64,000 bases of DNA from Utricularia gibba. Taxonomy: Eukaryota; Streptophyta; Magnoliopsida; Lamiales; Lentibulariaceae. The translations under genes were made by a program, and so were the position numbers. The DNA lies in contig NEEC01000004.1 in assembly GCA_002189035.1 (NCBI GenBank), forward strand, positions 4,030,001-4,094,000, written 5' to 3'. Below, piece by piece: positions 18,676 to 56,870 of the stretch (its first letter is position 1; each line of letters begins with the position of its first letter). The notes under the pieces were generated by a model, which worked only from the letters and a program-made list of their open reading frames with translations, ran no database searches and was not told where the DNA came from.

Positions 18676-19886
18676 ACGATTTGTTTTTTAAAGAAAATAA
18701 CAATTGATTTTAAATAAATAAATCAAATTTTAAGAGGGAAAAAAGTTGATCCACATCCCTTCAGAACTGCACATCCAGATGCATATTTTTACCATGGAAT
18801 AATGTATTTTAGTTACGTGAAAATATACACCATTTAGGAAAATTAAAAAATATATTTGATATATAATTTTTTATAAAAATGAGTTTAAAAAAATATTTCG
18901 TTATAATCTATAATATGAAAAAAAATAATTAAAATTCATTTGATTAATAAAACATAGATTAGATAAAAAAATTTAAAAATATGATTAGAAGAGGTATATA
19001 AATGTTTTAGAAATAATGTATATATGAAAAAATATTTTATCAACATGTGATGTGTGTTATGTGTAAACAAATATGTTAATAAATACCTAAAAAATTTATC
19101 TCAATCAAGATTTACATTCACTATATATGATATTTTCCATTTTAAAAATACAATCCTCACTATTTTATGTTTTTTTAAATAAAATGTTTCATAAAAGATT
19201 AATAGTATTCTTTTATTTAAATACGTTATTTTATACATTCGTAATCAATATGATATATTGTTTATTAGGTCTATAGACTTACATTATCCCCTCCTCTCAG
19301 ATACTTGTTGTCCCACTATTGATATACACATGTATCTCATTTTGATATCAAATTTCAAAACTTACGTTTTTCTTATACTATATTATTTCTTTTAAGTACT
19401 AAACTTTCATGGTTGTAAGTTATTTATTTTTGAGTAAAAAATTTCGTACAAGATTAGAAATATCGCTCTATTTATATATATCATTTATTTCATTTGTAAA
19501 CAATGTGTTATATCATTTTCTAGGTTCTTAATTTTACATTATTTTCTAAACAATTTTAATCTTGTATGAATTTTTTTTCTAGAGTAGAATAATATAAAAT
19601 TGTAAAAATTAAATATTGCAAGGAACAACATCACATAAATAAAGTTGAGATTTTCAAGTGAAGAAGAGTGAACTTGGCGGAATGCTAGTAATTTATGAAT
19701 GTAATTTGTTATAATTGTTTTGTATTAAATTCAATCTTAATTTTTTTTTTCAATGGAAAAGAGATGCACACTCTCCACCTCACACTCTCAACTAACTACT
19801 AACGAACATGTACTGCATCTATATAAGCACAGCACACACAAATCCCATCATTACCTTCATCATCGTCACCTATTTGCCTCACCGGA
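18676..19886. other. AT-rich spacer and FLA promoter
   Basis: About 1.2 kb of very AT-rich sequence. A TATA-like CTATATAAGC lies near 19818, about 65 bases before the FLA start codon. No gene or named repeat was recognised. Confidence 0.5.
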
Positions 19887-20825
19887 ATGAGTCGACTCAC
19901 CGACGCCGCAGCCGTCGTCTTCGTCCTTCTTGTCTATTTCTTCTCCGTCTCCGCCTTCAACATCACCCGCATTTTAGAACAATACCCCGATTTCAAAGAA
20001 TTCAACCATATTTTGACACGAACACAACTCGCCACAGAGATCAACAGCCGGAGAACGATCACCGTCCTCGCGGTTGCTGACGGCAAGCTGGGAGGAATTC
20101 GAGGGAAAGGGGACGATGTTCTGAAGAGAATCCTGAGTAACCACGTCGTTCTTGATTACCACGATGTCTCGAAGCTTAGCAAACTTAAGAGTCAGAGAAC
20201 TGTCGTCACGATCCTGTATGGAGCTAGTGGCATTGAGTATAGCGGACAGGGATTCTTGAATGTCGTGCGTAGAATCGACGGCGCCGTCGTTTTCGGCTCC
20301 GCTGTGAAAGGGGCTCCGCTTAATTGTGTACTCGAGGGCTTCGTTGCTTCTCAGCCGTACAGAGTGTCAGTTCTCAACGTTTCTAACGTTATCGTTGCGC
20401 CGGGGATTGATGGAAGCAGTGATCCGGCATCCGCACCGCCACCGGTTTCTTGGATTTCAATGGATTCAGGGCCTTCACCTGGCGGCGGCAATGCCTTTCC
20501 CACGGATTCAGGCCCATCTCCAGGCGGTGGCAATGGCATTCCTGAGTCTTCGGTGCCTTCTCCAGGAGGCGGCAATGCCTTTCCTGCGGATTCAGGCCGA
20601 TCTCCAGGCGGCGGCAATGACATTCCTGAGTCTTCGGTGCCTTCTCCAGGAGGCGGCAATGCCTTTCCTGCGGATTCAGGCCCATCTCCAGGCGGCGGCA
20701 ATGACATTCCTGAGTCTTCAGGCCCATCTCCAGGTGGTGACAATGGCATTGCCGACGGGAAGGTGAAGCTCCTCCCAGTACCACGGCGGAACGACTACCT
20801 TCCGGCACCTCAGCGGCGGTGGTAG
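19887..20825 (+). CDS. Fasciclin-like arabinogalactan protein, single FAS1 domain, C-terminus probably frameshifted
   Basis: One exon of 312 codons. Residues 1 to about 24 form a signal peptide (VVFVLLVYFFSVSA). A single FAS1 domain follows, from FNITRILEQYPDFKEFN to NVSNVIVAPG, with the H1 (TVLAVADG) and H2-like (VVTILYG) regions. Then comes a Ser/Pro/Gly-rich repeat with Pro residues suited to hydroxylation and arabinogalactan addition. This matches the FLA3/5/14 class of cell-surface proteins. In this frame the protein ends in a charged tail (VPRRNDYLPAPQRRW), although family members end in a hydrophobic GPI-anchor signal. Just such a tail (SGTSAAVVASLALLARI, stop at 20852) is encoded in another frame from 20762, so a 1-base loss or 2-base gain near 20750-20762 is likely. 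As written, the protein would be secreted without an anchor. Confidence 0.85.
   Translation: MSRLTDAAAVVFVLLVYFFSVSAFNITRILEQYPDFKEFNHILTRTQLATEINSRRTITVLAVADGKLGGIRGKGDDVLKRILSNHVVLDYHDVSKLSKLKSQRTVVTILYGASGIEYSGQGFLNVVRRIDGAVVFGSAVKGAPLNCVLEGFVASQPYRVSVLNVSNVIVAPGIDGSSDPASAPPPVSWISMDSGPSPGGGNAFPTDSGPSPGGGNGIPESSVPSPGGGNAFPADSGRSPGGGNDIPESSVPSPGGGNAFPADSGPSPGGGNDIPESSGPSPGGDNGIADGKVKLLPVPRRNDYLPAPQRRW
20463..20756 (+). repeat. 42-bp coding tandem repeat in the FLA gene
   Basis: Seven units of 14 codons, consensus DSGPSPGGGNAFPA, alternate between an AFP-type and an IPES-type ending, so there is also an 84-bp higher-order unit. Units 3 to 6 are nearly identical, pointing to recent slippage or unequal exchange. 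All units keep frame. Confidence 0.9.
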
Positions 20826-34721: not shown

Positions 34722-36664
34722 ATGGGTTGGAGGTATAAGGCTGGGTTGGGAATGATTGGTGCTTTTGTTCTCGTATGGGTCGCTGCTGCTGAGGTTACGC
34801 AGGTGGGTCTTTGAAGCTCTGGATTTTGAATTAACATAATCTTTTGGTTGTATTTGAGGTTTTCGCTCCTTGGATGTGTGAAGCTTTGAGTTTGCTTATT
34901 ATCATGATCTTGGACTTGGTGTTTTGCAGAAAATTTTCGTGGAGTACAGGCAGCCTTTTGCTCTTACGTATATTTGGATCTCGATGATGGTTGTCTATAT
35001 TCCTGTAGCGTTATGTAGAGATTATGTGTACAGTTTAGTAGAAAAGAGGTGTCTGAGAAGGTCTGTTAGTGGAACTAGGTGGCTGGATTACTATTTTGGT
35101 GTTGATGAAGCACAAGAAGATTCAGAAGCAGTTCTGAAGGGTTACCTTATGAGGGATATGGGGTTGCATGAAATGGAAGCTGGGCAGACGTTGTTGCTGA
35201 AGGAGGAGGATGAGTTGAGCTTTGGAGGAAGGGGACATGAACTAGGCTGGAAGGAAGTAGTCAAGTGCAGCCTTTATTTAGCACCTCTATGGTTTGCGAC
35301 AGAGGTAGTTCGTCAGCATTCTGGATGATTTTCTCAAATTTTCGGCTGCATGAGGCTCATAAAATAAAGAAATGTACTCATGCTTATTGCAACGTTCTGC
35401 AGTATTTTTCGAATTCTGCTTTGGCGCACACAAGTGTTGCAAGCACAACTGTGTTAACTTCAACGTCAGGCCTCTTCACACTTCTTATTGGAGCAAGTAT
35501 TGGGCAGGAGACGATAAGCATTGCTAAGGTTTCAGCAGTATTGATTACTGTGGTTGGTGTCGCAATGACTACTGTTGGAAAAACTTGGGCCTCGGACGAG
35601 AATCTTCTTACTGATGAGTAAGCCTATGCAATTCTTCTGCAGTAACATTTATGCTCATTTTTAAAATGATATGACGATATTTCCTTACACGGATTGGGGA
35701 TAAAATTATTCAATATTTGATGCATCATTTTCATACGTATAGCAGAACAAACAAGCATTCCATAACTGGAGACATATTTGGTCTGCTCTCTGCGGTGTTT
35801 TATGGCACATTTACAGGTATAGGAATAAGGATTTCTGTTAGTTGCCTTGTTGTAATGTTAGGTATACCTACATTGGTGAAGCATGACCTTTGAGTGCTTT
35901 TACAGTGCTTCTGAAGCGATTCGCTGGATCAGGAGGAGAGCAGGTTGATGTACAGAAATTCTTTGGATATATTGGACTGTTCACACTAGTTGGTTTCTGG
36001 TGGCTTGGTAGGAAACCTTTCATTGATGTACTTTTGTCATGTTTGATCCCCTTGTACACCTGTTCAAGTTGGAACTTCATCAATTTTACAGTTATGCGTA
36101 TAAAGATTGAAAACCCAAAGAATCCCATCGAATTGGTTCTTTTGTGCAGCTTGGCCACTTAGTTCTCTCGGAATCGGGCCAGAATTCAGTCTTCCAAGTT
36201 CAGCATCGATTTTCGAGGCCATTTTGGTCAGTGGCTTTGTAGGAAGTGTTCTTTCTGATTACTTATGGTATGAACCCTCCTCACTTTCCTGACTTTAAGT
36301 ACTATCGCCATCAAAGTAAGATCTTTTGCCTTATGCGGTAGTCATTCAATCTAGACTTGCTTTCTGATAATCAAAACAGGGGTCTAGCAGTCATCTGGAC
36401 AACTCCGTTGGTGGCAACACTGGGCATGTCCTTAACGATTCCAGTGGCAATGCTGGCCGATATGCTAGTCCATGGGCGGCAGTACTCAGCTGTATTCATC
36501 ATCGGTTGTGTTCAGGTGGGTGCTGTTTTGTTCTGGAATCTTGGCCTTCATCATTCGTTTGGCTTTTGTATTAACATTTGCATCTCGTTCAGGTATTTTT
36601 AGGTTTCATCATTGCCAATGTCTCCGACAGGCGTTCATGTACAAGAAGGCAAATGTTATCTTAG
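34722..36664 (+). CDS. EamA / SLC35F-like membrane transporter
   Basis: Eight in-phase exons (34722..34802, 34930..35304, 35403..35617, 35743..35816, 35906..36007, 36150..36267, 36380..36515, 36593..36664) give about 390 residues. Hydrophobic segments and blocks such as SVASTTVLTSTSGLFTLLIG, GLLSAVFYGTFTVLLKRF and WTTPLVATLGMSLTIPVAML match the plant EamA-like/SLC35F family of the drug/metabolite transporter superfamily. About ten membrane spans are expected, with an acidic loop after the second. Substrate unknown. The gene ends tail to tail with the left CPS gene, stops 164 bp apart. From intron 5 onward it lies inside the left arm of the inverted duplication, and its last three exons are repeated at 44.8-45.6 kb. 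Confidence 0.88.
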
Positions 36665-39600
36665 AAATGAAGCTGACAAACTGTTTGAAGTTGCAACTCC
36701 TGAATGAAAGAGTCAGCAACCGCGCTTATAATACGTGTAGAAGAGTTGGATGTATAGAAACAAGAATTTTACACAGGAGAATAGAAATATGAAATTTCTG
36801 ACCTTATGTTCTCAGCAAGCCGAAGTTATTACACAACTTTATCAAACAGAATTTTAGATATATGGCTATCGATCTCCTCAGTAGAGAAAAATGCCCTGTA
36901 GTAAGATGTCCGGGCAAACATAAAAAAGCTTTGCTTGATGTGCTTGGAGATGGCATCTGAGTCCTGGAAGGCCAGCTGCACCAGCAACTGCATGTCCTTT
37001 TCTATTGCTTTGATTGCTTCCTTGTTCCCCTTCTCTGTCAGGTAGAAGCAAATTTTGTGGGTGATCCCAGAAATAGCTTTGTATTCCTGCTCCAGAATTG
37101 AGTCTTTGGAGACTGTGTGCCCTCCTACAAGTTTCACCGTCAGAACAATGAGCTCCTCCACTTCGATATCCTTTTTGCTATTGTTTCGGATTGCATTTAG
37201 CCATTCTTCCCACTGCAGCATGATTTCTTGAATGTCATCATGAATGTGAATTTCTAAAATTACAGCACACTGATAGTAGGCTAACCGAATGACGTAAAAG
37301 TTCATGGATTTCGGTGTTGATCCATTTCCTTGCCTCTGTCTCTAGATCTTGTATGCATTCCATGAGGACTTCACCAAGTTTTGTGATGGTGTTTTCCCGA
37401 GAGCTACAAGATAGGACTTGATAGGATAGATTTTAACTAAACAAAGCTACTAAAGTGAACATGTACCATATCTTCGATGATTTTTCATTGAATTCACATG
37501 CTGCTAAGAGTGCTTGGGAGACAGTTTGTAACTTAGCCCATGCCATTCTCTCTGCTGTTCTCTCTTTCTCAAAGATGGTTGCTGCCGCTAAGAAGAAAGC
37601 TAGGAGGAGGTCATTTTTACACACTCCTGTTTCTTCCAGAGCGCAAGAACTGTACCAGCTGTGGGTCGAAAAGATAAAGCGTTTCACAAGTCATTCTTCG
37701 AGACATACTGCTTCCAAAATAAGGTAGCCATTACTCTTGTATGCAGTCCCATTCGATCTGATGTTGAGACTGGCATATGTTGAAGTCCAACTTCCCGAGC
37801 TCTAGGTACGCTTCTTGGTTGATTTCAGGCATCCTTGAAAGATGAAAGCATCATGAGATGACATTTTTATACATGAGTGCTGAAACGTTTGAATGGAAAC
37901 AGTTGAACCTGTACAAGGATTTGGCGATCCATATGTCATCTGGATCATATATCTCAAGATAAAACCGAGCTTCGATTCGAGGTAATGCAGCATACCATGG
38001 CATTTCCAGGCCACGCTTTATCTATGCAAAGAGGCGTATGATTTGAATATGCAGAAACATGTTTGACTAGTACTGTCAAAATGGTAATACCTCATTTGGC
38101 AGATGTTTGGAAATCAACCATTTATCAAGAAGTTGGTTTTTCTGTAGCCTTTGTTTTAGAAACCTCTGAGAAAACTCCCTGGCTTGTTCCAAAACCGATT
38201 CCCCAGGAAATAAAACTTGGGAAGCTCTATAGAGATTGAAAATTGGTGATGGGGATTCGAATCCTTGACCAACGTAGCAAGTAAATTCATCACCCTTCTT
38301 GAAGTTTATCAGTGCCCCTGCATGCAGAGAACATCTCATTTTCAAAGCATTGCCTTTATTCATAATCTGTTTGGTGAATCCTTTTACATGAAGCTTGATC
38401 CATCTTACTGGGAGTAACATCGTATCCGTGCAACCTAAGAAGTCTGAAAGCCATGGAGGTATCATCAATATCTGGAAAATCAGACTCTCTTGCGCTAAAA
38501 ACTCCTTTGTCAGTCCAAAACCTTGAATATTAAAATAGACTGGTTAAAACTCATGCTGACAGTGCGGCTTGTGTATATGGTAAATTGACTTTGCACCTGT
38601 AGACATAATCTAAGCAATTCCTGATCTCTGCTTCGAAGAACCGGGAGATCCCGAGGCGCTGAAGGCGATCAACTAACCAAACCCTTGAAAATATGTCCAC
38701 AGGATACGCAGTTGGTGCTGAATTAAAGCAACATAGTCAGACTTCAAAAGCTCAAGACGTTCAAGTGATGCTGAATGTAATTGTTTCAACCTCCTCCATT
38801 GAATTTGTCCACAACATACTTGATATATTCGATACAGCTTTCATTTTTTGTCTGTGTAATGGCATAGGAAGTTGAAGCGGGGGAGGTCAGGAAGCAGCCT
38901 TTCGGAGTCTGCAACCTGACCAGTTTCGACCACTGTAGTTTTCCAAATGATTCAACGTGCCCCAGCCCTTCCAGGTTGTAAAGTAAGCATGTTGGAACTT
39001 CATAGAGGAGATCCTTAGGCACACTGCAAGCAGTCCAAGCTTATCGAACTAAACAGGAGAATAATATTGTGTATATGCAACATGGCCTGCAGCCTCACCG
39101 TCTCATTTTCTCTTCTCTGACAGAAAAAATCTCTTGAATGGCAGGATCATTATAGGGAATCCCTTCAATGCCAAGTTCCGTAGCTTTGTCAAGAAGGGCA
39201 GGAAATACAACCTCGAATCCGCACGTCATATGCTCAGTCTTCGCCTCAGAAAGCTTGCCCATGTTCTCTTTGATAAACGCCACTCCTGTCAACAAAAAAC
39301 TCAAGGAAATGGATGAGATTGCACCATGCACAAGTATGCTGAATTCCCTAGATTTATCATTGCACCTTTTTCGATTTTATCATGGTGAACATCCCAATGT
39401 TTCAGTGCAACAACACAAGCTAGAGTATTGAGCAATCGATCATACACCAAGAAAAACTGCTGGTCACCCCATGAGCCATCAGAAAGCTGATTGTTGGATA
39501 TCCATGCTAGACTCGATGGGAAGTGTGGAGTATGTGCATCACTTCCCTGAAGATTTTCAATGAGAGCAACCCATGCAGTGTCATAAGGCGATACAGATAT

Positions 39601-40236
39601 TCTCCCATCATCCATCGAGCTCAGTAAATTCTTGATAAAGGTGATATACTCCCTCTCCTCCTGTTAACAGGAAACATGCGAGAAGGGATTGTTTCTTCAG
39701 GTAAATAAATTTATACTCTGTTCGCGTGTTTTCTTAGGCAGTAGAAGGTGCTCTTACCTCATTCTTTCCAAGCATTCTATCATCACACACATCTTTCTCT
39801 ATGTATACTCTTGGCACCTTTACTCTACCTGCAACCAAGTTATATTTAGGACAATATTACGATTCTGAGAACATCCGGAAGCATGCCATACCTTTGAACT
39901 GCCTGAAACAGAGGGAGCTGGTGTTGAGGATTGAACATGGCTTCACGTTCACTGGAGATGGGATAGATTTAGACAGCGAATATGCAAAGCTGAACCCGAG
40001 ATGAGGATTCACAAATGCATGCATGCTTGATGGTCACTGATGTCCTGATGCGTCACAGCACAACACAGTTTTCTTCTGTTTATGTTGGGACTGATGGCCC
40101 TTCAACTTTAGATCACTAGCAGAAATGTGCCCTTGTTGAAGAATGTTTTCCTTCGTCTTGAAACTGCAGTAAGAAAAGTTAGAATGCGAAACCTCATATT
40201 TGGCTCTTTGTTGCCATTCAACATCACCTTCTCTAG
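36010..40236. repeat. Large inverted duplication, left arm
   Basis: Mirrors 41339..45565 in opposite orientation. It holds transporter exons 6-8 and the whole left CPS gene with about 210 bp of its upstream sequence. Outer limit: near CATTGATGTACTTTTGTCA (transporter intron 5). Inner limit: near the GAAGGTGATGTTGAATGG complement at about 40236. Limits were judged by eye to within about 20 bp. Confidence 0.9.
36829..40024 (-). CDS. Class II diterpene cyclase (copalyl diphosphate synthase type), left copy
   Basis: Thirteen exons on the minus strand mirror the right copy exon by exon and give about 772 residues. A basic, Ser-rich plastid transit peptide starts [19 protein letters not shown]. 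The diterpene synthase N-terminal signature is [19 protein letters not shown]. The proton-donating DXDD motif is DIDD at 38461..38472. No class I DDxxD motif was seen, so it should cyclise GGPP to a bicyclic diphosphate only. Compared with Arabidopsis CPS, the dyad His (TLLHSLEG) is Tyr here ([10 protein letters not shown], codon 38978..38980), the dyad Asn is Thr (APTAYPVD), and the Mg-inhibition His is Arg (VDIFSRVW). These point to specialised metabolism and perhaps another stereochemistry or a hydroxylated product. All splice sites are present, but the last intron would be only 40 bases. Confidence 0.88.
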
Positions 40237-41545
40237 ACAACAATCTTTATCATAAATGCCTACATGCCTTGTAAAAGCAGTTGCGGTGGTGCCAAACACA
40301 TTACTAAACTGGAATATATACAATACAGCACCCGCAACAGCTGATGGCAGAGAAGCTTCCTGCTACAAATCTGTATATACCTTATCTTCAGCAAATCACA
40401 TAACGAGGACAGATATTAGACAGAATTTGGAAGTTGGATAGAAGTATAAACCTGATAAGCTTCCTGAAGCAGTCACCAGAATCCCCTTTGCGTTGGTGTG
40501 TCACTGGCTTCTTCTCTTTGGAACTATACTGAATCCAAGAGAAACATAAAACTTGAGAGGTTCTGAAAAACTAAATTCTAATACAAAAAGAAGTCTTTTA
40601 TATATTTACTAAATTCTAGTTAGGATGTGACTGTCCCCCATTTACTGGTTGCCCATTCCCTTCACTGTTTTTTACACGTGACCGGTGACCCTACCCAAGT
40701 CCGGCGGCTGTTGGTTTCCGCATAGTCCAGTCCTTGTTACACAAAGTCGGTGTTTGATAGGTATATTAATATATATTATCTCGATATAAATTTATCTTGA
40801 TTTAAGATATAAAAATAAAGAATAATGACAAATGGATATATTTGAAAAATACTCATCTCTCTGCTTTTTATTTTGAAAATAATTATTCTTTCAAAACATT
40901 TTTGGACCAACAAATTCCTAGATATTCATTCCATCATATAATTTATTTAAATTAAAATATATTTAATCTTGAAATTTTTATTAAATAATTATTATTGTAT
41001 TCGAAAAAAAATTTCATATAAAGTATACATTTAGCAGTTATAGCTTTGTTTTAATAATATTCTTTTTTTGTGTTGGTCCATTTGGCACGTGTATTGTAAT
41101 TATTTATATAAGGTTGTGACACTTAATAGATCATGGTATTCAATGTGCGTGTCCCTTTGAATAATAATTTTAGTCAATATGCTGGTTATGTTAGGTGCTA
41201 TTTTATATTAAGATTTCAATTTTAGTTTTGAGTTGCTTGTAACAATCCATTGAATCAATACTTTCGGAATTTTGTAGTAAATCATCGTTGAAATCCGTTG
41301 AACTAGAGTTGAAACTAATCAAATTATACATGACTTCAGAAGGAGATGCTGAATGGGAACAAAGAGCCAAATATGAGGTTTGGCATCCTAACTTTTCATA
41401 CTGCAGTTTCAACACGAAGGAAAACATTTTTCAACAAGGGCATATTTCTGCTAGTGATCTAAAGTTGAAGAGTAATCAGTCCCAATATAAACAGAAGCAA
41501 ACTGTGTTTTGCTGTTATGCATTAAGACATCAGTGACCATCAAGC
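40025..41545. promoter_or_regulatory. Head-to-head region between the two CPS genes
   Basis: About 1.5 kb separates the two CPS start codons. The outer 210 bp on each side belong to the duplicated arms; the middle 1.1 kb is unique and AT-rich. Next to each ATG is a frame of about 66 codons that stops 10 bases before it (40034..40240 minus, 41333..41536 plus); it is conserved in both arms but has an ATG only on the right. CACGTG-like cores occur at about 40675 (ACACGTGA) and 41086 (GCACGTGT). Both promoters must lie here. Confidence 0.5.
40842..40930 (+). repeat. Short direct repeat, copy in the palindrome spacer
   Basis: Shares a 21-base identical start (TTGAAAAATACTCATCTCTC plus T) and looser similarity over about 90 bp with 45691..45780, in the same orientation. 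The two copies bracket the right arm. Confidence 0.7.
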
Positions 41546-44500
41546 ATGCATGCATTTGTGAATCCTCATCTCGGGTTCAGCTTTGCATATTCGCTGTCTA
41601 AATCTATCCCATCTCCAGTGAACGTGAAGCCATGTTCAATCCTCAACACCAGCTCCCTCTGTTTCAGGCAGTTCAAAGGTATGGATGCTTCCGGATGTTC
41701 TCAGAATCGTAATATTGTCCTAAATATAACTTGGTTGCAGGTAGAGTAAAGGTGCCAAGAGTATACATAGAGAAAGATGTGTGTGATGATAGAATGCTTG
41801 GAAAGAATGAGGTAAGAGCACCTTCTACTGCCTAAGAAAACACGCGAACAGAGTATAAATTTATTTACCTGAAGAAACAATCCCTTCTCGCATGTTTCCT
41901 GTTAACAGGAGGAGAGGGAGTATATCACCTTTATCAAGAATTTACTGAGCTCGATGGATGATGGGAGAATATCTGTATCGCCTTATGACACTGCATGGGT
42001 TGCTCTCATTGAAAATCTTCAGGGAAGTGATGCACATACTCCACACTTCCCATCGAGTCTAGCATGGATATCCAACAATCAGCTTTCTGATGGCTCATGG
42101 GGTGACCAGCAGTTTTTCTTGGTGTATGATCGATTGCTCAATACTCTAGCTTGTGTTGTTGCACTGAAACATTGGGATGTTCACCATGATAAAATCGAAA
42201 AAGGTGCAATGATAAATCTAGGGAATTCAGCATACTTGTGCATGGTGCAATCTCATCCATTTCCTTGAGTTTTTTGTTGACAGGAGTGGCGTTTATCAAA
42301 GAGAACATGGGCAAGCTTTCTGAGGCGAAGACTGAGCATATGACGTGCGGATTCGAGGTTGTATTTCCTGCCCTTCTTGACAAAGCTACGGAACTTGGCA
42401 TTGAAGGGATTCCCTATAATGATCCTGCCATTCAAGAGATTTTTTCTGTCAGAGAAGAGAAAATGAGACGGTGAGGCTGCAGGCCATGTTGCATATACAG
42501 AATATTATTCTCCTGTTTGGTTCGATAAGCTTGGACTGCTTGCAGTGTGCCTAAGGATCTCCTCTATGAAGTTCCAACATGCTTACTTCACAACCTGGAA
42601 GGGCTGGGGCACGTTGAATCATTTGGAAAACTAGAGTGGTCAAAACTGGTCAGGTTGCAGACTCCGAAAGGCTGCTTTCTGACCTCCCCCGCTTCGACGT
42701 CCTATGCCATTACACAGACAAAAGATGAAAGCTGCATCGAATATATCAAGTATATTGTTGACAAATTCAATGGAGGAGGTAGAATCAATCACGTTCAGCA
42801 TACATTTAGCATCACGTGAACGTCTTGAGCTTTTCAAGTCTGACTGTGTTGCTTTAATTCAGCACCAACAGTGTATCCTGTGGACATCTATTCAAGGCTC
42901 TGGGCAGTTGATCGCCTTCAGCGCCTCGGGATCTCCCGGTTCTTCGAAGCAGAGATCAGGAATTGCTTAGATTATGTCTACAGGTGCAAAGTCAATTTAC
43001 CATATACACAAGCCGCACTGTCAGCATGAGTTTTAACCAGTCTATTGTAATATTCAAGGTTTTGGACTGACAAAGGAGTTTTTAGCGCAAGAGAGTCTGA
43101 TTTTCCAGATATTGATGATACCTCCATGGCTTTCAGACTTCTTAGGTTGCACGGATACGATGTTACTCCCAGTAAGATGGATCAAGCTTCATGTAAAAGG
43201 ATTCACCAAACAGATTATGAATAAAGGCAATGCTTTGAAAATGAGATGTTCTCTGCATGCAGGGGCACTGATAAACTTCAAGAAGGGTGATGAATTTACT
43301 TGCTACGTTGGTCAAGGATTCGAATCCCCATCACCAATTTTCAATCTCTATAGAGCTTCCCAAGTTTTATTTCCTGGGGAATCGGTTTTGGAACAAGCCA
43401 GGGAGTTTTCTCAGAGGTTTCTAAAACAAAGGCTACAGAAAAACCAACTTCTTGATAAATGGTTGATTTCCAAACATCTGCCAAATGAGGTATTACCATT
43501 TTGACAGTACTAGTCAAACATGTTTCTGCAGATGCAAATCATACGCCTCTTTGCATAGATAAAGCATGGCCTGGAAATGCCATGGTATGCTGCATTACCT
43601 CGAATCGAAGCTCGGTTTTATCTTGAGATATATGATGCAGATGACATATGGATCGGCAAATCCTTGTACAGGTTCAGCTGTCTCCATTCAAAACATTTCA
43701 GCACTCGTGTATAAAAATGTCATCTCATGATGCTTTCATCTTTCAAGGATGCCTGAAATCAATGAAGAAGCTTACCTAGAGCTCGGGAAGTTGGACTTCA
43801 ACATATGCCAGTCTCAACATCAGATCGAATGGGACTGCATAAAAGAGTAATGGCTACCTTATTTTGGAAGTAGTATGTCTCGAAGAATGACTTGTGAATC
43901 GCTTTTTCTTTTCAACCCACAGCTGGTACAGTTCTTGCGCTCTGGAAGAAACAGGAGTGTGTAAAAATGACCTCCTCCTAGCTTTCTTCTTAGCGGCAGC
44001 AACCATCTTTGAGAAAGAGAGAACAGCAGAGAGAATGGCATGGGCTAAGTTACAAACTGTCTCCCAAGCACTCTTAGCAGCATGTGAATTCAATGAAAAA
44101 TCATCGAAGATATGGTACATGTTCACTTTACTAGCTTTGTTTAGTTAAAATCTATCCTATCAAGTCCTATCTTGTAGCTCTCGGGAAAACACCATCACAA
44201 AACTTGGTGAAGTCCTCATGGAATGCATACAAGATCTAGAGACAGAGGCAAGGAAATGGATCAACACCGAAATCCATGAACTTTTACGTCATTCGGTTAG
44301 CCTACTATCAGTGTGCTGTAATTTTAGAAATTCACATTCATGATGACATTCAAGAAATCATGGTGCAGTGGGAAGAATGGCTAAATGCAATCCGAAACAA
44401 CAGCAAAAGGGATACCGAAGTGGAGGAGCTCATTGTTCGGACGGTGAACCTTGTAGGAGGGCACACAGTCTCCAAAGACACGATCCTGGAGCAGGAATAC

Positions 44501-44752
44501 AAAGCTATTTCTGGGATCACTCACAAAATTTGCTCCTACCTGACAGAGAAGGGGAACAAGGAAGCAATCAAAGCAATAGAAAAGGACATGCAGTTGCTGG
44601 TGCAGCTGGCCTTCCAGGACTCAGATGCCATCTCCAAGCACATCAAGCAAAGCTTTTTTATGTTTGCCCGGACATATTACTACAGGGCATTTTTCTCTAC
44701 TGAGGAGATCAATAGCCATATATCTAAAATCCTGTTTGAGAAAGTTGTGTAA
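41546..44752 (+). CDS. Class II diterpene cyclase (copalyl diphosphate synthase type), right copy
   Basis: Thirteen exons: 41546..41678, 41741..41811, 41909..42203, 42284..42470, 42546..42778, 42863..42983, 43059..43171, 43263..43489, 43559..43671, 43748..43846, 43923..44114, 44178..44287, 44328..44752. They keep phase and give about 772 residues, close to the usual 800 for CPS. Transit peptide first, then [17 protein letters not shown], the DXDD motif DIDD at 43108..43119, [33 protein letters not shown] and a helical C-terminus ending in FEKVV. The dyad His is kept here ([10 protein letters not shown]), but the dyad Asn is Thr (42868..42870) and the Mg-inhibition His is Arg (42895..42897). 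Expected role: plastid cyclisation of GGPP to a copalyl-type diphosphate. Its C-terminal exon differs from the left copy at about 10 of 158 frame positions. Confidence 0.9.
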
Positions 44753-44796
44753 TAACTTCGGCTTGCTGAGAACATAAGGTCAGAAATTTCATATGT

Positions 44797-45565
44797 CTAT
44801 TCTCCTGTGTTTGTTTCTATACATTCAACTCTTCTACAGGTATTATAAGAGCGGTTGCTGACTCTTTCATTCAGGTCTTGCAACTTGAAACAGTTTGTCA
44901 GCTTCATTTCGAAGATAACATTTGCCTTCTTGTACATGAACGCCTGTCGGAGACATTGGCGATGATGAAACCTAAAAATACCTGAACGAGATGCAATTGT
45001 TAATACAGAAGCAAAACGAATGATGAAGGCCAAGATTCCAGAACAACACAGCACCCATCTGAACACAACCGATGATGAGTACAGCTGAGTAGTGCCTCCC
45101 ATGGACTAGCATATCAGCCAGCATTGCCACTGGAATCGTTAAGGACATGCCCAATGTTGCCACCAACGGAGTTGTCCAGATGACTGCTGGACCCCTGTTT
45201 TGATTATCACAAAGCAAGTCTAGATTGAATGACTACCACATAAGGCAAAAGATCTTACTTTGATGGCGATAGTATTTAAAGTCCAGAAATTGAGGAGGGT
45301 TCATACCATAGGTAATCAGAAAGAACACTTCCTACAATGCCACTAAGCAAAATGGCCTCAAAAATCGATCCTGAACTTGGAAGACTGAAAAATTCGCGCC
45401 CGCTTCCAAGAGAACTAAGTGGCAAGCTGCACAAAAGAACCAAGCCGATAGGATTCTTTGGGTTTTCAATCTTTATACGTATAACTGTAAAATTGATGAA
45501 GTTCCAGCTTGAACAGGTGTACGAGAGGATCAAACATGACAAAAGTACATCAATGGAAGGTGTCC
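44797..45565 (-). pseudogene. Truncated second copy of the transporter gene (exons 6-8)
   Basis: The minus strand repeats transporter exons 6 (SVLSDYLW), 7 (VIWTTPLVATLGMSLTIPVA) and 8 (the VFLGFII stretch) with a few changes, and stops in what was intron 5. Exons 1-5 are absent, so there is no start. The donor after exon 7 has changed from GT to AT (45058..45057), and the natural stop of exon 8 is lost (TCTTAG to TCTTCG). It is a by-product of the inverted duplication. Confidence 0.85.
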
Positions 45566-48094
45566 TCTCCCCTCCAGTGGGGAGATGGGAATGCTAATAA
45601 ATTGTGTTAAGACGGGTAAAATGCTAATAAATTGTGCTAGTAGGGTAAATTGCATATTAAATACATTTGAAAACAGTAAAAGACCGACTGTTGAAAAATA
45701 CTCATCTCTCTTTTTTCTAGTTTGAAAATACACATACTCTCAAAACACTTTTTGATAAATACCTATACTTAATATTTGTTTAAAATTGAATACAAAAAAA
45801 TTAAATACATTGACAATCTATATTCATATTCATTATTTTATTAAAATTTTTAAAAATAAAAATAAATGTTATATTCTTTGTATTTAAATGTTATATCTAT
45901 ATAATATTGTGCCGCTAATGAATCACCATGCTTAACATTTCAACCAACTTTGCCATGGTCTTTACTTCCTTAGTTCCATTGTTGCCATTGGTTTGGCGTT
46001 GTCCACGTCCCTATGTTCCGGCTTCCCTCCTTGAACTAAGCTAGCACTAGTTCTAACCATTTTGCCAGCACAATACTCTGGTTAGTTCTCGTTAATTCAC
46101 GTGTTACCTTGACCTTACAGATGGCGGGGATGGTCTGAGCAATGATATATCCTCCTATGTGGTCCGCCACGAACCTAACTCTAATACCATTTGTGACGGT
46201 CCGTCAAGACACCTAGTCGAGCAACCATCATCAAAGACACAAAAATGTATGAGACGCTATCAATAATAAAGTTTGCTAGTATTGAATGTCTATTAAAGAT
46301 AGTTGTATCAACTTATGGTTGAATAATGAAAAAATGTAATTGTTCAATAAACTAAGAATAAGATTTAAGATTTTCATCATTCACAATAATATAAACAGTT
46401 GATATAATAAACAATAATAAATAATTTACGATCATAAAAAATTAAATTTAGATAACAAAAAATAACAATTCATTATTTCAGAGTATAAATATTATCATGC
46501 ATAAAAATGAGTTACATCAATTGAAAGGATGAGATTACACAATTTGGATTCGATTGTATATCATAAACTGATTATTCTACAATTGTATTTGAATTTATCT
46601 ATTGGAGCACAAACATATGGCAAGACAAGTTATTCATTAATGATTCCTAAGATACCTGAATAAATTCAAATCCATGTTGAACACTGAATCAAACCTTTTC
46701 ATAATCAATGATATAATTGTATTCGATTTGTATCTCAACAATTACCTTACGAATCCTTAACTCTAAAATAAATAAATAAATATTTGAAAATAATGCTAAT
46801 AGAGAAAAAAAATAAATAATAAACAATTATATTATCTTGTATATTTTAAACATAGTCTATCAAATCTCATTCAATGAAAATCACATAGATATTTCTATAT
46901 TTGAATCCCTCAATTCTACTTCAACAAGTATGAAGATAAAAAAACTTTAAATTATTAGAACTCATCTCTCTATGATTTATAAAGACTAATATGAAACTCA
47001 TATTGCATTATTGAAGTAGAATAGCATTTTAATACCAAATGCTTTGATTTACTTTCAATAACACAAAATTAAAAATGTTTTTTTATGTGCCAATGACAAA
47101 AAAAAATCTTCTTCTTTGGATTTAAATTCAATCCTATTTCTCAAACAAAATTATCAAGATCCTAGCTAATATACACTCATTTGTCTACAAATTCATTGGC
47201 CAACATTAGTTCCCCCACTTTGAAATAAATAGTCAATCATTTAGAAGCATTGTTTGAAATTGATATCTAAACTTGATGTATGTAAAATAGAAACTTATGA
47301 TAATTGATTTTTTATATTAAAATATTCTTAAAACCTATCTTTATCTATGTTTCCAATTGTTGTTGACTTATGTTTTGATTCAAAAGACGAAGAATCAGAA
47401 TCGTATATTAGTAGTGAATTAGATGTTATTGTACTATCAAACTTTTCAATTGAAAAAGTAAGGAAATTATAAAACTAAATGAATTATATTTGATTGAAAT
47501 ATGTATTTATCTAAAATTAATCTAATTTTTAATTTATTCCATGAACACCATATCAATTTAAAAAAAAAAAAATCCGCCCCTCAATTATTGGATCTCAAGC
47601 ATCTAATTTGATTGTGGATTGAGTACTAATCTAACCCAATAAATAATCGGACTAGAACCATATTATTAATGACTATATGTAATTGAGGTTTAGCTCGACC
47701 TTAATCCAAAACTTGGCGATAATACTTTGAAATAGGGTTGGGCTAGCTTGGTGCAACCCAATTTTCATTTCTAGTGACGAGAGTATTAATTATTAGGTGA
47801 GTCTTTCGGTTCTCAAGCAATATTCTTTATTAGTAGATATAAAGAAACTCAATTTCTCCAATACACCACATCACAACTTATTTTGTCATTACACCATGGG
47901 AGAGGAGGGCTTTACAAGCCAAATGAATTTGAATTGGACTCCTCAGGTTCCATTCGTGATTTTATAATGTTTCCTCTGCAAATTGGTGTTCACAGAGTGC
48001 TGTTCTTGCCAGCGAAGCATGCCTTCAACCTCATCGGATAATGGGTAAGCCTTAGATATAACGAGTGGCGAAGGGGGCAGCCAAGAAATTCAGG
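45566..48094. other. AT-rich intergenic region with a retroelement trace
   Basis: No gene recognised. On the minus strand TGGTATTAGAGT at 46178..46189 is a one-mismatch form of the initiator-Met primer-binding site, and the sequence beyond it (TTTGTGACGGTC onward) may be the end of an LTR, so an LTR element in minus orientation probably once lay here. The last 150 bases before the APX6-like sequence are less AT-rich. Confidence 0.45.
45691..45780 (+). repeat. Short direct repeat, copy outside the right arm
   Basis: Partner of 40842..40930. It lies about 125 bp beyond the outer end of the right arm. Confidence 0.7.
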
Positions 48095-55542: not shown

Positions 55543-55645
55543 TGATTTTCAACTTATATTCAAGTTTTACCGGTGGCTGCTGCTTCACCCCTTTCTGCAA
55601 TGGCTTTCAACAAAGGGTTTATACTTACCAAAGTGAGCATTAGAG
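55543..55645 (+). repeat. Host segment repeated at 56887-57165, copy 1 (empty site)
   Basis: Reads TTCAACTTATATTCAAG, then CCGGTGGCTGCTGCTTCACC, then CAAAGTGAGCATTA. Copy 2 has the same order but a MITE sits in GTGGCTGC. This copy shows the uninterrupted state. Confidence 0.75.
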
Positions 55646-55654
55646 AAAAAGAGT

Positions 55655-56870
55655 AGGAGAAGTGTTTTATTGAATTTTGAACCACACGATAAGATACAAG
55701 AGATGATATTCAAATAGAATCTTCAAGATGATTAAAAATTCATTTTTTTTCTTCCTTGATTGATAGACTACTTTGATTTTATCCTTTAAATTAAGGGATA
55801 AGCACGTGGCTCTCTTTCAATAGCATGTGACTTAATTACTTCATTGACACAAAAGATGATCTTTGGACTATTCTTCTCCTCATCACATCTTGGTAGAGGT
55901 AGTGTCTTGCCTTGTGAAAGTGAGATACTGCAAAGCTCTAATCAAGACTCTAAAAGGTGTAGGACTTGCAAGAGTTTCAGCCTTTGTTGGAGGTGTGACC
56001 TTAGTTGCTTGGAGAGTTAGTGCTGATTTACAATCTTGTAAAACAAACTTATCAAAAATAGATAAGGCATAGGACTTTTGTGTTTTGTACCACTTGTACA
56101 CCAAGAAAATAATGCAAGAACCCAAGATTCTTCATAGCAAACTCTGAGGATAGTCACTCAATTAGTTTAGTTACATTGCGCATGGCATACCGTTTCGAAG
56201 TTCGTTTCGAGATGATCATCTTTCCTGTTGAAAGCTTCTTCATCATCCTTGGACGAAGACGCTTTCAACAGGAAAGATGACCAGCTCGGAATGAGCTTTG
56301 AAACGGTATGCCGTGCGCATAGTAATAAAACCAAAGTATCATTACCAATATATGAAATGAAGAGTGAAAGATCCACAAGACTGTACAAGAAATCAATATG
56401 TAAGAGAAATGAACTAAATCAATCATACCATGGCTTTGGTGCTTGTTTTAACCCATATAATGTTTGAGTAAGATTGCAAACATGTGTTGGAAATACCTTG
56501 TTTTTCATACTTGGAGGATGTTTCATGAAAATATCCTTATAGATATGATCATGCATAAAAACATTCTTAACATCAAGTTGATATATCTTCCATCCATTAC
56601 TCAATCCAATAGACATGATACGACCTATGATGTTTGGTTGAATAACATGAGAAAAAGTTTCAGTATAATTATTTTATTGAATTTTGAACCACACAATAAA
56701 ATACAAGAGATAGATGTTTAAATAGATTGTTAGAATTGATTATAGATCCATTTTTTTTATTCTTTAAATTATAGATCCATTTTTTAAAAAATACAAAATA
56801 TACTTTGACTTTATTCCTTAAATTAAGGGATAATAATGTGCCTCTATTTCAACACCACAACACCATATTA
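55655..56870 (-). mobile_element. Truncated copia element with possible LTR pair
   Basis: Similar blocks near 55655-55830 and 56665-56865 (TTGAATTTTGAACCACAC, then TTAAATTAAGGGATAA) may be two LTRs. Between them the minus strand at 56419..56616 reads IYQLDVKNVFMHDHIYKDIF and LTQTLYGLKQAPKPWYD, a copia reverse transcriptase piece. Most of the internal region is gone. Confidence 0.6.
56178..56329. repeat. Hairpin-forming inverted repeat, arms about 64 bp
   Basis: The left arm from GCGCATGGCATACCGTTTC pairs with the right arm ending GAAACGGTATGCCGTGCGC. About 56 of 64 positions match, including a perfect 20-base block (TCATCTTTCCTGTTGAAAGC), around a short loop. Both arms can encode similar peptides (AFNRKDD, FETVC), so it looks like an inverted duplication of a coding fragment. 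Confidence 0.8.

Follow-up and report, generated by a model that had tools for sequence, protein, structure and literature searches.

Patchy homogenisation of an inverted pair of class II diterpene cyclase genes in Utricularia gibba and their divergence at putative product-switch residues

Results

An inverted duplication carries two cyclase genes and a transporter end

We analysed a window of 64,000 nucleotides of the Utricularia gibba genome (assembly GCA_002189035.1, contig NEEC01000004.1, positions 4,030,001 to 4,094,000), which lies on the contig designated C413; positions below are those of the window. The locus consists of an EamA-type transporter gene, two cyclase genes facing outward and a spacer between them, with the following features.

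34722-36664, plus strand: EamA-type (SLC35F5-like) transporter, intact, 8 exons, 389 aa (manual splice model, Pfam EamA, exon matches)
36010-40232: left arm, the positional original (blastn self-match, 96.5%)
36829-40024, minus strand: left class II diterpene cyclase, 13 exons, 772 aa, DIDD, Tyr244 and Ala310 (gene model, cyclase alignment)
40233-41337: spacer, largely dispersed repeat fragments (sequence matches elsewhere)
41338-45566: right arm, the inverted copy (blastn self-match)
41546-44752, plus strand: right class II diterpene cyclase, 13 exons, 772 aa, DIDD, His244 and Val310 (gene model, cyclase alignment)
44913-45428, minus strand: truncated transporter copy, exons 6-8 only (exon matches)

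Self-comparison by blastn returned one large match in the window, an inverted repeat pairing 36010-40232 with 45566-41338. The alignment of the two arms spans 4,238 columns, in which 124 substitutions and 6 indel events leave 96.5% identity and an overall divergence of 3.5%. A sequence-only reading of this DNA had described mirror-image arms at 36010-40236 and 41339-45565, which agree with the self-match to a few bases; its complete, outward-facing 13-exon gene of the CPS type in each arm and its transporter 3' end in each arm are likewise borne out by our gene models. Specifically, the 3' part of the intact transporter (Pfam EamA, E=6e-8; PF06027, tried as its family, gave no match to the gene) falls inside the left arm, while the right arm terminates within transporter intron 5. 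With the whole transporter at the left end and only a truncated copy of it at the right, the simplest reading is that the left position is the original one. No additional arm copy was found in the assembly searched (100.09 Mb, 516 contigs), and a search of the breakpoints for long microhomology revealed none. Elsewhere in the window, we observed a fasciclin-like gene (19827-20822) with an internal direct repeat of ~84-bp units (20465-20745) encoding PSPGGGN-type repeats, and, at 55643-56852, a short palindrome (56162-56334, 80%) lying between the two copies (55643-55820 and 56649-56852) of a 71% direct repeat, which together may represent a small transposon.

Could two haplotypes, or a chimeric read, have been misjoined head to head in the assembly? 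Allelic divergence in this genome may be about 3%, similar to that of the arms, as judged from the apparent haplotig C333, which is ~97% identical to its counterpart on C328. A spacer is present, however, the outer flanks differ, the right end is asymmetric within a transporter intron and the divergence is mosaic (see below), whereas a read with a missed adapter would yield identical arms without a spacer. Moreover, the locus lies deep inside a 5.67-Mb contig, and the published assembly was built from 88x PacBio data with mean subreads of 10.4 kb (PMC5793159). We consider such an artefact very unlikely: the inverted, head-to-head segmental duplication of the cyclase gene and the neighbouring transporter 3' end is real.

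The two genes encode predicted class II diterpene cyclases

All introns of both cyclase genes are GT-AG and both 772-aa frames are intact, with 23 of the 772 residues differing between the proteins (97% identical). Both carry the DxDD motif in the form DIDD, and the class I DDxxD motif is absent from the class I domain of both, as in monofunctional enzymes. The right copy is homologous to the Grindelia 7,13-CPP synthase (9b99) over residues 41-772 (E=7e-198), can be aligned with AtCPS (3pya) along most of its sequence and matches Pfam Terpene_synth. By these features the pair are TPS-c class II diterpene cyclases, with cyclisation of GGPP as the predicted reaction. Copy-versus-copy dN is 0.013 and dS 0.033, a ratio of ~0.4 that is consistent with constraint on both genes.

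The motifs LHS and PNV are reported to be conserved among gibberellin CPSs (PMC11795633). A separate CPS on contig C3 (3621.8-3624.8 kb) carries both and is therefore the likely gibberellin (hormone) gene, which would leave the C413 pair free for another role; the C3 CPS is 56% and the pair ~46% identical to AtCPS. Because the right copy reads LHN and PTV and the left copy LYN and PTA at these motifs, the pair probably belongs to specialised metabolism. The change of AtCPS His331 to Arg was discarded as a further mark of specialised metabolism, since the gibberellin-type C3 CPS also has Arg.

The spacer consists largely of repeat debris

The spacer has the 1.1 kb that the sequence-only reading gave it, but it is largely repeat debris and not unique. 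Four fragments were recognised: 40420-40605, whose copies adjoin retrotransposon pol-like frames and which was for this reason rejected as a linked gene's exon; 40741-40827, with many copies; 40842-40906, with a copy at 45691-45755; and 40899-41323, with an 82% copy on C304. No cyclase lies near the C304 copy, and it was dropped as a candidate ancestral promoter for a paralog. The two start codons are 1,521 bp apart across this repeat-rich stretch, and each gene has its own homologous 0.2-kb proximal region, 10% diverged from the other, which gives no support to the earlier idea of one short divergent promoter; shared regulation of the pair is possible. Additionally, an open frame of ~67 aa lies directly upstream of each cyclase (40037-40237 and 41336-41533), with 77% amino-acid identity between the arms; considered as a missed gene, it was set aside because it has no other match in the genome.

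Inverted chalcone synthase repeats in soybean and PAI repeats in Arabidopsis give rise to silencing small RNAs. The geometry here would permit a 4.2-kb stem and a 1.1-kb loop, so that a transcript spanning the spacer could fold into a hairpin and yield small RNAs against the gene family. Such a silencing locus is highly improbable, given that both frames are intact and constrained and that the genes face outward, so their ordinary transcripts are not self-complementary.

Divergence between the arms is mosaic

Comparison of the arms at silent sites (noncoding plus fourfold sites) revealed strongly uneven divergence. The outer 0.8 kb differ by 5.5%, two stretches further in by 5.7-5.9% and the 188 bp preceding the genes by 10%; two tracts of identity interrupt this divergence (left-arm coordinates).

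38050-38532: tract 2, arms identical, 0/186 silent differences
38533-39069: putative unconverted patch with silent divergence of 5.9%, coding for residues 244-325, among them 244 and 310
39070-40044: tract 1, arms identical except for one 1-bp indel, 0/383 silent differences
40045-40232: region immediately upstream of the left gene, where the arms diverge most (10%)

None of 20,000 random placements gave identical stretches as long as the 975 and 483 bp observed. Protein conservation cannot explain the identity of tract 1, because its introns are identical as well, save for the single 1-bp indel. Palindromes under conversion are recognised by such silent-identical tracts within inverted arms that have otherwise diverged, and arm-to-arm gene conversion would be the simplest cause here, although assembly or polishing could account for some of the identity. 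The divergence of tract 1 is below ~0.8% (rule of three on 0/383), which places the conversion recently relative to the duplication. Taking 7e-9 per site per year as the plant rate (an assumption), a divergence of 5.5% would correspond to roughly 4 million years for the duplication, a figure good to an order of magnitude only. The description of the duplication as young is thus too simple, since silent divergence reaches 5.5-10% outside the identical tracts; the arms most likely represent an older duplication that was re-homogenised patchwise through gene conversion.

These data suggest the following course of events. The copy would have been inserted in inverted orientation ~1.1 kb from the original left locus, with both genes remaining intact. 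At least two tracts would then have been reset to identity by gene conversion, while the 0.54-kb patch, which encodes part of the active site, would have escaped conversion or been kept from it, possibly by selection.

Residues at known product-switch positions differ within the diverged patch

The patch, lying between tracts 1 and 2, contains both switch positions. Residue 244, which aligns with the catalytic base His263 of AtCPS, is Tyr in the left copy and His in the right copy; residue 310, which aligns with the residue following Asn322 of AtCPS (the Asn of the catalytic dyad), is Ala and Val, respectively. The Asn322 site itself is Thr309 in both copies. At the corresponding positions, the kolavenyl-PP synthase of Salvia divinorum (SdKPS) has an aromatic residue and Ala where ent-CPP synthases have His and Val; its F255H mutation switched the product to ent-CPP, addition of A314V partly restored kolavenyl-PP, and A314 alone left the product unchanged (PMC5441855). 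The H263Y mutant of AtCPS produces ent-kolavenyl-PP (PMC11795633). The SdKPS-type combination of an aromatic residue at the His263 site and Ala after the Asn322 site occurs in the left copy only, which we do not file as a kolavenyl-PP synthase given its Thr309. The chance that the 23 differences among 772 residues would include both switch sites is 8.5e-4, in a test framed post hoc.

Among the amino-acid differences that outgroup cyclases allowed to be polarised, the right copy agreed with more outgroups at 11 sites, including the catalytic-base residue, and the left copy at 5. The left copy, although in the original position, therefore looks the more derived, and the earlier claim that the left locus is ancestral holds by position (intact transporter) but not by sequence.

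From the residues at 244 and 310 we predict that the left and right enzymes make different products. For the right copy a retained CPP-type activity is most likely, and for the left copy a class II product of another kind, for example a rearranged kolavenyl/clerodane-type or an isomeric labdadienyl diphosphate. The left product cannot be named more closely, since Thr309 is present, enzymes of other product classes (Grindelia, Abies) likewise have Tyr at the His263 site and A314 by itself was ineffective; with Thr at the Asn322 site in both copies, the His/Tyr effect may not transfer from AtCPS or SdKPS.

The pair could instead be ordinary duplicates that underwent duplication and conversion and retained the same product (dosage), with neutral drift at residues 244 and 310. 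In favour of this, few residues differ, product effects are context-dependent, Thr309 is common to both copies, and patchy conversion could by chance leave an unconverted patch. What it leaves to coincidence is that two of the 23 differences fall at both of the reported product-control positions, and in the matching combination. We regard a shared product as unlikely and favour, as the probable reading of the whole locus, an inverted duplication with patchy conversion and divergence at switch residues that gives different products.

A related transporter adjoins a class I-like pair on another contig

Among the paralogs compared, the C413 transporter and one on contig C4 (3.233 Mb) are mutually closest (67% versus 47-53%, full bootstrap). 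The C4 transporter is likewise followed by a pair of diterpene synthase genes (C4:3237650-3246050), here class I KS-like (DDFFD), in direct tandem and 95.9% identical. This pair is equally mosaic, with one identical run of 1,603 bp. As read from the frames, another class I KS-like gene on C413 at 2.81 Mb has GPIV, like the PIx motif reported in kaurene synthases, where the C4 tandem pair has GCKL. Further protein-level synteny between C413 and C4 was not found within ~30 kb, and wider synteny of the window with C4:3.20-3.27 Mb was rejected, the two having in common only a 141-bp noncoding match, the transporter and TPS-family similarity. Together, the shared transporter and the adjoining synthase pairs suggest that C413 and C4 may be ohnologous halves of one diterpenoid cluster after reciprocal loss. 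C333 and C328 hold further terpene synthase genes, with matches to angiosperm TPS-b monoterpene synthases (E ~1e-79; close to cineole synthase); C333 (39 kb) carries the same tandem TPS-b pair as the part of C328 (1.66 Mb) that it matches, and looks like a haplotig.

Discussion

Loci of this kind are already known; the interest of the present one lies in the mosaic conversion around product-switch divergence and in the probable ohnologous class I locus. Two natural enzymes that are 97% identical differ at a known product switch, which provides a small and testable case of duplicated enzymes diverging in product while conversion still homogenises them. If their products do differ, the pair would represent neofunctionalisation surviving active conversion, and would hint at a diterpenoid chemistry as yet unexplored in this carnivorous bladderwort. 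The transporter plus class II and transporter plus class I loci further suggest a Lamiales diterpenoid cluster split by whole-genome duplication. A tentative and rather unlikely extension of these ideas is that one palindrome in a balance of conversion and selection, in which conversion would keep the scaffold common and selection would hold the product-determining residues apart, supplies both clerodane-type and copalyl-type precursors, with the C4 pair derived from the same ancestral cluster.

The pair resembles angiosperm TPS-c enzymes such as AtCPS (3pya), the Grindelia synthase (9b99) and SdKPS in its DIDD motif, its lack of DDxxD and its near full-length homology, and the same catalytic-base positions vary among those enzymes and within the pair; from the gibberellin CPSs it differs at both motifs, LHS being replaced by LHN or LYN and PNV by PTV or PTA. 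As in the palindromes of mammalian X and willow sex chromosomes (PMC8981503, PMC7023750), inverted arms flank a spacer and contain homogenised tracts. Unlike those palindromes, the C413 locus is small, has one gene per arm, is not known to be sex-linked and is incompletely homogenised. In Erythranthe, also of the Lamiales, a single region without P450s holds two genes of class II and one three-domain gene of class I (PMC9860074); in our window, the longer open frames included no P450. The diterpenoid clusters of Lamiales and Lamiaceae (PMC9860074) share with the bladderwort loci duplicated class II genes and class I partners; here, in contrast, the class II pair on C413 and the class I-like pair on C4 lie on separate contigs, each beside a related transporter.
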